From an uncultured Marivita sp. (GTDB taxonomy: Bacteria; Pseudomonadota; Alphaproteobacteria; Rhodobacterales; Rhodobacteraceae), in assembly GCA_947503115.1 (NCBI GenBank), contig CANNCS010000027.1, positions 1 to 38,411 on the forward strand: 38,411 nt of DNA. The letters run 5' to 3'. The translations under genes were made by a program, and so were the position numbers. Each line of letters starts with the position of its first letter. Within the stretch, counting starts at the first letter, position 1. Below are positions 8,982 through 11,412 of this stretch, piece by piece. The notes under the pieces were generated by a model that saw nothing but the letters and a program-made list of their open reading frames with translations, was not told the origin of the DNA and did not search any database.

Positions 8982-9509
8982 ATGCCTGCCATGAAATTGC
9001 CGATCCTCATCCACCCGGACCCGCGTCTGAAAAAGGTCTGTGACCCTGTGCCCGATCTTTCGGACGATCTGCGCGTGTTGGCCAAGGACATGCTGGACAC
9101 CATGTACGACGCGCCGGGCATCGGTCTTGCCGCGCCGCAGGTGGGAGTGTTGTCGCGTCTGATTGTTTTGGATTGCGTCAACAATGAGGAAACGTCTCCG
9201 CGTCCGCTTGTTATGTTCAACCCAGAAATCGTGGCGTCTTCAGATGATCTAAACGTCTATGAAGAAGGTTGCCTGTCGATCCCGGATCAGTTCGCAGACG
9301 TGACCCGTCCCGAAGCTGTTAAGGTTGCGTGGATCGACGAAAATGGCAATCCGAAAGAGGAAGAGTTTGACGGGCTATGGGCGACCTGCGTTCAGCACGA
9401 GATCGACCACCTGAACGGCAAATTGTTTATCGACTACCTTAAGCCGCTCAAGCGTCAGATGATCACCCGCAAGATGGTCAAGCTTAAGCGTGAGTTGGCA
9501 CGGGCATGA
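8982..9509 (+). CDS. def: Peptide deformylase, first paralogue
   Basis: Peptide deformylase removes the formyl group from nascent N-terminal methionine at the ribosome exit. All three motifs are intact: GIGLAAPQ (46-53), EGCLS with metal ligand C97 (95-99), and HEIDH (139-143) with two metal-binding His and the catalytic Glu. The basic C-terminal helix KRQMITRKMVKLKRELARA resembles the ribosome-binding helix of bacterial enzymes. The start may instead be the ATG at 8991 (MKLPILIHP), which looks more like the family; no strong ribosome binding site separates the two. This is the best candidate for the housekeeping enzyme of the three. Confidence 0.96.
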   Translation: MPAMKLPILIHPDPRLKKVCDPVPDLSDDLRVLAKDMLDTMYDAPGIGLAAPQVGVLSRLIVLDCVNNEETSPRPLVMFNPEIVASSDDLNVYEEGCLSIPDQFADVTRPEAVKVAWIDENGNPKEEEFDGLWATCVQHEIDHLNGKLFIDYLKPLKRQMITRKMVKLKRELARA

Positions 9510-10003
9510 GTGTCCGGCCGATTGTCACATGGCCTGACCCCCGACTGTCCGAGGTCTGCGCACCCGTTGATGACCTGACTGATCTCGCCGATCTGGTCCG
9601 GGATATGTTCGACACAATGTATGACGCACCGGGGCGCGGCCTCGCCGCGCCTCAGATTGGCGTGATGCAAAGGGTTTTCGTGATGGACCCCACGTGGAAA
9701 ACGGGCGACCGCACACCTTTCGTATGCATCAATCCAGAGATCCTTTCCTCAGGGGGGGGCACCGCCGACGCGACCGAAGCCTGCCTTTCCATTCCGGGTG
9801 TCTCGGTTGATGTGAGCCGGCCAACGGATATCACCTTTGGATTCACCGATCTGGATGGTGTCCGGCATGAAACGCGCCTAACCGGATTTGCTGCGATCTG
9901 TGCACAGCACGAACTGGATCATCTGAACGGCGTGGTGATCTTTGACCGCCTGACGCCTGAGATGCGGGCGCAAGTCGAAGCCAATTATGCGGTGCTTGTA
10001 TGA
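9506..10003 (+). CDS. def: Peptide deformylase, second paralogue
   Basis: A second deformylase with all catalytic residues present but altered motif edges: GRGLAAPQ (43-50) with Arg in place of the usual Ile/Val, EACLS with C93 (91-95), and HELDH (135-139). It lacks the long basic C-terminal helix of the first copy, ending soon after EMRAQVEANYAVLV, so ribosome docking may differ. It overlaps the first gene by four bases (ATGA) and the third by four, so all three are probably translated from one message. It is probably an active enzyme with another substrate range, but this is inference. Confidence 0.94.
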   Translation: MSVRPIVTWPDPRLSEVCAPVDDLTDLADLVRDMFDTMYDAPGRGLAAPQIGVMQRVFVMDPTWKTGDRTPFVCINPEILSSGGGTADATEACLSIPGVSVDVSRPTDITFGFTDLDGVRHETRLTGFAAICAQHELDHLNGVVIFDRLTPEMRAQVEANYAVLV

Positions 10004-10497
10004 CGACGCGCCTTTGCCTGCCTTGGCCGAATAGATGCCTGCGCACACCTGCCGAACCAGTGGACGACATCTCTGATGAGATCCGAGCGATCTGGAATGA
10101 CATGATCGACACGATGGAGGCGATGCCCGGTGTTGGTCTTGCCGCTAACCAGATCGGTATTTTGAAACGGCTTGCTGTGGTGGATGCGTCCGAGGAACGG
10201 GGCCGGGCGGTGCGGATGGCAAACCCGGAAATCCTGCACGCCTCGGTGCAGCTTCGGTCGCACGAAGAGGCAAGCCCGAACCTGCCCGGAGTGTTTGCCA
10301 AGATTGAACGCCCGCGCGCGGTGACCGTGCGGTTCATGGGAGACGATGGTACGGTTCGTGAACAGGACTTCGTTGGCCTCTGGGCGACGTCGGTGCAGCA
10401 CCAAATCGATCATCTGAACGGCAAGATGTATTTCGACCATTTGAGCAAGACCAAGCGCGACATGCTTTTGCGGCGGGCAAATAAGCTGAAAGGCTAG
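10000..10497 (+). CDS. Peptide-deformylase-like protein, active site degenerate
   Basis: This has the deformylase fold but not the catalytic set. Motif I is GVGLAANQ (44-51), close to normal. Motif II, normally EGCLS, reads EASPN, so the metal-ligand Cys is Ser at position 92. Motif III, normally HExxH, reads HQIDH (134-138), so the general acid/base Glu is Gln at 135; both His remain. A basic C-terminal helix (TKRDMLLRRANKLKG) like that of the first copy is kept. The frame is open, overlaps its neighbours tightly and shows no decay, which suggests a maintained non-hydrolytic role, such as binding to the ribosome or to formylated peptides. Family membership is clear; the role is inferred. Confidence 0.92.
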   Translation: MTTRLCLPWPNRCLRTPAEPVDDISDEIRAIWNDMIDTMEAMPGVGLAANQIGILKRLAVVDASEERGRAVRMANPEILHASVQLRSHEEASPNLPGVFAKIERPRAVTVRFMGDDGTVREQDFVGLWATSVQHQIDHLNGKMYFDHLSKTKRDMLLRRANKLKG

Positions 10498-10500
10498 GAC

Positions 10501-11412
10501 ATGCGGATCATCTTCATGGGAACGCCCGATTTCTCGGTTCCGGTGCTCGACGCTCTGGTCGAGGCCGGGCACGAGATCGCCGCCGTCTATTGCCAGCCGC
10601 CGCGTCCGGCGGGGCGGGGCAAGAAAGACCGTCCGACCCCTGTGCACGCACGGGCAGAAGCTTTGGGCCTTGAGGTGCGACATCCGACTTCGTTGCGCAA
10701 TGACGAGGCGCAGCAGAACTTCGCAGCGCTGGGCGCGGATGTCGCTGTTGTGGTTGCTTATGGTTTGATCCTGCCACAAGCCGTTCTGGATGCGCCGACA
10801 CATGGCTGCCTGAACATTCATGCCTCACTCCTACCACGCTGGCGCGGGGCGGCGCCCATTCATCGCGCGATCATGGCTGGGGATGCCGAGACGGGGATCT
10901 GTATTATGCAGATGGAGGCCGGGCTGGACACGGGGCCGGTGCTTCTGCGCGAGGCGACAGAGATTGCCACGACCGAAACCACAGGCGAATTACATGACCG
11001 CCTAAGCCAAATGGGTGCGGACCTTATTGTGCAGGCCTTGCAGCAGATCGGCACATTGACGCCAGAGAGCCAACCGGACGAGGGCGTAACCTACGCCCAA
11101 AAGATCGACAAAGCCGAGGCGCAGATCGACTGGACCCGACCCGCCGTTGAACTGGACCGCCAGATCCGGGGGCTCGCGCCGTTTCCCGGGGCGTGGACAA
11201 TGATTGGCGCGGAACGTGTCAAACTGCTGGGCAGTCGTCTGTCAGATCAGCGCGGAGCTGCCGGGATGGCCTTGGATGATGCCTTCACCATTGCCTGTGG
11301 CTCAGGAGCCGTTACCATCACTCGTGCGCAGCGTGCAGGAAAAGGCGCGCAGGATACCGAGACATTTCTGCGCGGCATGGCGGTTCCTTCGGGAACCCGT
11401 TTAGGAGACTAG
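10501..11412 (+). CDS. fmt: Methionyl-tRNA formyltransferase
   Basis: Fmt formylates the methionyl group of initiator tRNA using 10-formyl-tetrahydrofolate. The N-terminal catalytic domain begins [16 protein letters not shown] and has the formyl-transfer core [21 protein letters not shown], with catalytic Asn, His and later Asp in METGLDTG-like [11 protein letters not shown]. The OB-like C-terminal tRNA-binding domain starts near residue 205. At 303 residues it is complete. It follows the third deformylase by three bases, with GGAC just before the ATG. Pairing with def is the standard formylation/deformylation operon. Confidence 0.97.

Follow-up and report, generated by a model that had tools for sequence, protein, structure and literature searches.

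An invariantly altered, inactive-looking peptide deformylase paralogue in the deformylase clusters of Rhodobacteraceae

Canonical type 1B peptide deformylases (PDFs), such as E. coli Def, are described as holding their metal through the Cys of motif II, both His of motif III, and water (PMC5591237). Deformylase is also described as docking through its C-terminal helix on ribosomal protein L22 at the tunnel exit, where it competes for docking with the aminopeptidase MAP (PMC8712518). Type 3 PDFs are reported from archaea and trypanosomatids, and the second PDF of both S. aureus and S. pneumoniae is counted among them (PMC12690207, PMC5591237). Clustered PDFs are found in 98.1% of Rhodobacterales reference species, with three PDFs in 62.5% of these, and the rationale for the clusters was called elusive (Lamberioux et al. 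2025, PMC12690207). As far as the available portions of that paper describe them, its clusters are the same loci as those treated here; those portions contained no mention of a cluster member lacking catalytic residues, and a literature search of open-licence papers gave, among the matches listed, no report of a fixed pseudoenzyme in a Rhodobacterales PDF cluster. Rhodobacterales PDF clusters and inactive type 3 PDFs have already been published; what appears to be new, as far as was found, is a fixed, inactive-looking cluster member.

In the window analyzed here (the whole stretch of 38,411 nucleotides from an uncultured Marivita sp.), three forward ORFs predicted to encode PDFs stand in tandem with 4 nt shared between neighbors, and these three are the only PF01327 matches in the assembly. 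The first (PDF1, positions 8982 to 9509, forward strand) has a Pfam match and encodes a canonical peptide deformylase with GIGLAAPQ, EEGCLS, and QHEIDH motifs and a basic tail. The second paralogue (PDF2, 9506 to 10003, forward strand) carries GRGLAAPQ, TEACLS, and QHELDH without a basic tail and is optional in orthologous loci. The third (PDF3, 10000 to 10497, forward strand) is an undamaged frame of 165 codons encoding an inactive-looking PDF paralogue of 165 amino acids. The methionyl-tRNA formyltransferase (FMT) gene fmt (10501 to 11412, forward strand), named by sequence and position without a family-library scan, starts 3 nt past the PDF3 stop. PDF3 passes the deformylase profiles (PF01327, 135.4 bits; TIGR00079, 128.3 bits versus a cutoff of 103.95), and because TIGR00079 is an NCBI curated family, automatic annotation will probably label PDF3 a peptide deformylase. 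Annotating it as active would mislead counts of active PDFs and of inhibitor targets.

Like type 1B PDFs (E. coli Def), PDF3 belongs to the PDF fold family and contains a PDF domain, motif I with its Gln, the metal-binding His pair, and a basic tail after motif III. Motif I, GVGLAANQ (residues 44 to 51, positions 10129 to 10152, forward strand), is retained. The basic C-terminal tail (residues 149 to 165, positions 10444 to 10494, forward strand; SKTKRDMLLRRANKLKG) is the counterpart of the ribosome-docking helix, and the median net charge past motif III is +7 for PDF3, +8 for PDF1, and −1 for PDF2. Unlike type 1B PDFs, PDF3 lacks the ligand Cys of motif II (EASPN) and the catalytic Glu of motif III (HQIDH). 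The altered motif II, HEEASPNLPG (residues 88 to 97, positions 10261 to 10290, forward strand), stands where PDF1 has YEEGCLSIPD and includes the replacements Cys92 to Ser (10273 to 10275), Leu93 to Pro, and Ser94 to Asn. The altered motif III, SVQHQIDH (residues 131 to 138, positions 10390 to 10413, forward strand), contains QHQIDH against QHEIDH in PDF1, with Cys131 replaced by Ser and Glu135 by Gln (codon CAA, 10402 to 10404). With Ser92 one metal ligand is therefore missing, and with Gln135 the catalytic Glu is missing; at the Leu93 position it is presumably the backbone NH that helps to bind or stabilize the formyl oxygen. From these replacements we infer that PDF3 has lost deformylase activity. 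The initial annotation had reported the three overlapping deformylases ahead of fmt and, in the third, Ser92 for the ligand Cys, Gln135 for the HExxH Glu, both His, GVGLAANQ, a basic C-terminal tail, and an undamaged frame, all of which the present analysis confirmed. That first reading had missed the replacement of Leu93 by Pro and the oddness of PDF2 in its GRGLAAPQ and TEACLS motifs and its tail.

PDF3 resembles type 3 PDFs as these are described in PMC12690207 and PMC5591237, namely, as motif-altered paralogues that are weakly active or inactive and occur beside an active PDF. The type 3 descriptions place the substitutions in motifs I and II, whereas PDF3 keeps motif I unchanged and carries a single fixed set of alterations in motifs II and III; the two are set apart here by motif description.

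A search for PDF3 in 198 genomes of the family (one genome per genus) and in a set of named genomes produced 170 aligned loci, read on both strands, which contained 161 distinct PDF3 proteins, some of the loci coming from identical or very closely related species. The closest named relatives were Marivita species (96% for M. cryptomonadis). All 170 PDF3s were identical at Gln51, Glu90, Ser92, Pro93, Arg104, Ser131, His134, Gln135, Asp137, His138, and Arg153, and Ala91 (158/170) and Asn94 (163/170) were less strict. Cys92, Leu93, Cys131, and Glu135 were present in 169 of 169 rows classed as PDF1, although two of these rows clustered with the PDF2s when a tree of 89 PDFs was built. The combination of E[AG]SP and HQ[ILV]DH was found in 182/182 loci fetched for PDF3 (the 170 aligned, ten divergent PDF3s with 48 to 62% identity, and two from the class sample), and no PDF3 among them had the intact EGCLS or HExxH that the initial annotation had named as a sign of a decaying copy. 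Being fixed in all of the aligned orthologues, the substitutions appear to be more than chance.

Mean column conservation was 0.80 for PDF3 versus 0.79 for PDF1. Twenty-two positions were invariant in PDF3, including Gln51, Glu90, Ser92, Pro93, His134, Gln135, Asp137, and His138, and because these include pocket residues, selection acts on the pocket itself. Twelve positions showed one residue at or close to fixation in PDF3 and a different one in PDF1; eight belong to motifs II and III or adjoin them (88, 91 to 95, 131, and 135), and the other four are Trp9, Trp32, Met42, and Leu156.

Both serine codon boxes were used among the 170 copies, at Ser92 (AGY in 141, TCN in 29) and at Ser131 (AGY in 78, TCN in 92), so that Ser persisted across a codon-box switch requiring two base substitutions. 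Among the ten pairs whose PDF3 dS was lowest (0.16 to 0.24), dN/dS was 0.013 to 0.142 for PDF3 and 0.037 to 0.121 for PDF1. Across 5,979 nonindependent pairs (PDF3 dS, 0.05 to 1.2), median dN/dS was 0.265 for PDF3, 0.237 for PDF1, and 0.436 for PDF2, by a simple method that is weak for distant pairs. Single values reached 0.83 in distant pairs, still not near 1, and the higher values there probably reflect inflation by saturation and GC bias. On this evidence, PDF3 is under purifying selection and not decaying, and the relaxed selection that the initial annotation had proposed checking for was not seen in the ten lowest-dS pairs. The combination of lost catalytic residues and purifying selection that marks a pseudoenzyme was found in PDF3. 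The earlier claim of a dead copy kept by selection holds as far as sequence reaches, the loss of activity being the part that is deduced.

PDF1 was found upstream of PDF3 in 168/170 loci, with PDF2 between them in about half. The gene orders were PDF1-PDF2-PDF3 (93 loci), PDF1-PDF3 (73 loci), PDF1-PDF1-PDF3 (2 loci), and others (2 loci), and in 121 of 169 loci PDF3 shared 4 nt with the PDF before it, with start codons chosen by rule. The fmt start motif was within 60 nt past PDF3 in 106/170 loci, farther away in 38, and either undetected or cut in 26; by these counts, PDF3 is tied less closely to fmt than to PDF1. The proposal that PDF3 is kept in a formylation operon was thus upheld for PDF1 and weakened for fmt. 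FMT residues Ser12 and Ala140 were common in loci with PDF3 and rarer in those without (L216 to L236 versus other family loci), an association for which well-supported branches supplied five independent pairs, a number that cannot give a significant result. A role for PDF3 as a spacer for fmt coupling was considered and rejected: its amino acid sequence is conserved, and among the 20 PDF3-less loci read, 15 run from PDF1 to fmt with no intervening PDF match.

Within the family sample, a PDF3 match below an E value of 1e-60, in a scan with 30 aligned PDF3s, was present in 162/198 genomes, and the motif was read in 100 of these 162. The remaining genomes had only PDF1- or PDF2-level matches (30/198) or no match (6/198). 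Twenty of the 30 loci without a strong PDF3 match were read. Apart from the 15 mentioned above, they comprised one contig ending in a PDF3 fragment, one locus with stop-bearing fragments, two whose second PDF lacked the PDF3 motif, and one with no fmt match. Since family lineages without PDF3 exist, no essential step depends on it, and it is dispensable. At one locus (L222, in genome G157, which is 80% complete), stop-bearing PDF2- and PDF3-like fragments lie behind an intact PDF1 and represent either a decaying cluster or assembly errors.

PDF3 was found in 0 of 371 alphaproteobacteria outside the family (376 alphaproteobacterial genomes in all, with at most nine candidates per genome scored), where the best score, 189.5 bits, was at the level of canonical PDFs, PDF3s scoring at least 220 bits. 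Among the best 25 outside-family loci, all 24 with motifs printed had EGCLS and HExDH. In 349 genomes of the phylum, the pattern QHQxDH occurred in 23/23 family genomes (10 of these 23 places coincided with PDF3 genes located independently, and 13 were left unread). Outside the family, it occurred at 26 places in 25/326 genomes, all of which were read and none of which lay in a PDF frame, as was also the case for one further place read in the window's own genome. A strict motif pattern matched only 2/385 class genomes and missed 3/5 family genomes, and it was therefore not used for absence. A viral search returned no relative.

In the tree of 89 PDFs, all 24 PDF3s grouped together as a single clade (SH-aLRT, 100), whose stem measured 1.29 changes per column. 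This quick tree tentatively placed PDF3 among the PDFs of other alphaproteobacteria and not with PDF1, and long-branch attraction is possible for a placement on so long a branch. These results point to a single origin of PDF3 within the family, after which it would have been frozen. The presence and absence of PDF3 required 11 changes on a PDF1-plus-FMT tree of 200 loci, at least five of them forced by well-supported branches; the rooted tree, whose rows were chosen by PDF3 presence, suggests an early gain followed by repeated loss.

Taken at the level of sequence, PDF3 probably assists or regulates deformylation as a partner and is neither an enzyme nor a decaying copy. Its basic tail, together with a pocket that does not vary, favors a ribosome-exit pseudodeformylase whose old active site serves as a binding pocket and which tunes PDF1, and this reading is tentatively preferred here. 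The same two features fit the earlier suggestion that PDF3 could bind the ribosome or act as a decoy for formyl-peptides or for a docking site. PDF3 would use its C-terminal helix to dock at the tunnel exit, at the L22 site, and would not deformylate. Its former active site may still hold a ligand, whether a nascent N terminus, a formyl-peptide, or a noncatalyzing metal, and the exchange of Glu for Gln would preserve the shape of the site and take away the base. PDF3 could hold the docking site or pass it on and so set the speed or the chain choice of PDF1 and of the competing aminopeptidase. The more detailed version, that a Glu-to-Gln pseudoenzyme made in overlap with PDF1 docks on L22 and holds N termini uncut, so timing or selecting deformylation, is possible and more doubtful. 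Two points count against parts of this scheme: the basic tail could be inherited and unused, and Pro93, should it abolish the backbone NH, would together with the lost Cys ligand argue against tight binding of formyl-peptide or metal.

If the tunnel-exit reading is true, PDF3 would represent a layer of control on N-terminal processing that is undescribed for bacteria among the papers found, and if PDF3 binds the ribosome, it would offer a simple handle on the control of cotranslational processing in a large marine bacterial family. PDF3 is also a concrete lead on why Rhodobacterales keep clustered deformylases, one member of the cluster probably not being an enzyme. A parallel in action only is provided by Ebp1 and Arx1, which resemble the N-terminal processing enzyme MetAP and occupy the tunnel exit of eukaryotic ribosomes (PMC7005732). 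These factors have a MetAP fold, are eukaryotic, and are unrelated to PDF, and PDF3, which has a PDF domain, falls outside that group. Ebp1 is not known to have peptidase activity.

The main rival of the tunnel-exit reading is that PDF3 is a noncatalytic subunit that would stabilize or steer PDF1 and pair with it as TldE, the inactive partner in TldD/TldE, pairs with TldD. This is unlikely, canonical PDFs being generally active alone and PDF1 working without PDF3 in the lineages that lost PDF3. PDF3 does always adjoin PDF1 where the locus is complete, with translational overlap in most, and the fixed Trp9, Trp32, and Met42 off the active site could build an interface; both Trp residues may instead be buried, and no PDF1 residue tracking PDF3 could be supported by an independent-pairs test, for which the five usable pairs lie below the reach of significance. 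TldD/TldE is described as a heterodimeric metalloprotease (PMC5810440).

New or altered chemistry, with another metal or without metal through Ser92, His134, Gln135, and His138, comes next and is quite unlikely. An invariant pocket that includes both His and Gln51 would suit it, as would the description in PMC12690207 of motif-altered type 3 PDFs that may work under special conditions. The general base and one metal ligand have been lost, Pro93 changes the oxyanion side, no fresh catalytic residue is apparent, and no substrate gene is consistently adjacent. It is very unlikely that PDF3 is a deformylase of low activity. Departures from the motif need not kill PDFs: in PMC12690207, 7.1% of reference genomes are given as having no PDF that matches the exact updated motifs, and the type 3 PDF of T. 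brucei as active despite motif mutations. Against this, the ligand Cys, the catalytic Glu, and Leu93 are all lost together in PDF3, and an intact PDF lies upstream in every PDF3 genome read where the locus is complete. Loss of PDF3 in several lineages (the at least five forced changes) and the stop-containing fragments at L222 would suit a decaying duplicate, which is refuted as a general explanation and extremely improbable given the identical fixed residues in 170/170 copies, the low dN/dS in the ten lowest-dS pairs, the open frames of the aligned copies, and the single origin of PDF3.

PDF2 is another odd member of the cluster. Its motif I carries Arg (GRG), with Arg45 in 94/94 aligned PDF2s, EAC often replaces EGC, its evolution is faster than that of PDF1 or PDF3, and many loci lack it. 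With the median tail charge of −1 given above, it is perhaps an active deformylase without ribosome docking. In two Pelagimonas-like loci with identical PDF2s (L097 and L013), the ligand Cys of PDF2 is gone (ENALS), as are the His and Glu of HExxH (QQVMDH), so that by its motifs a further cluster member has lost catalytic residues separately.
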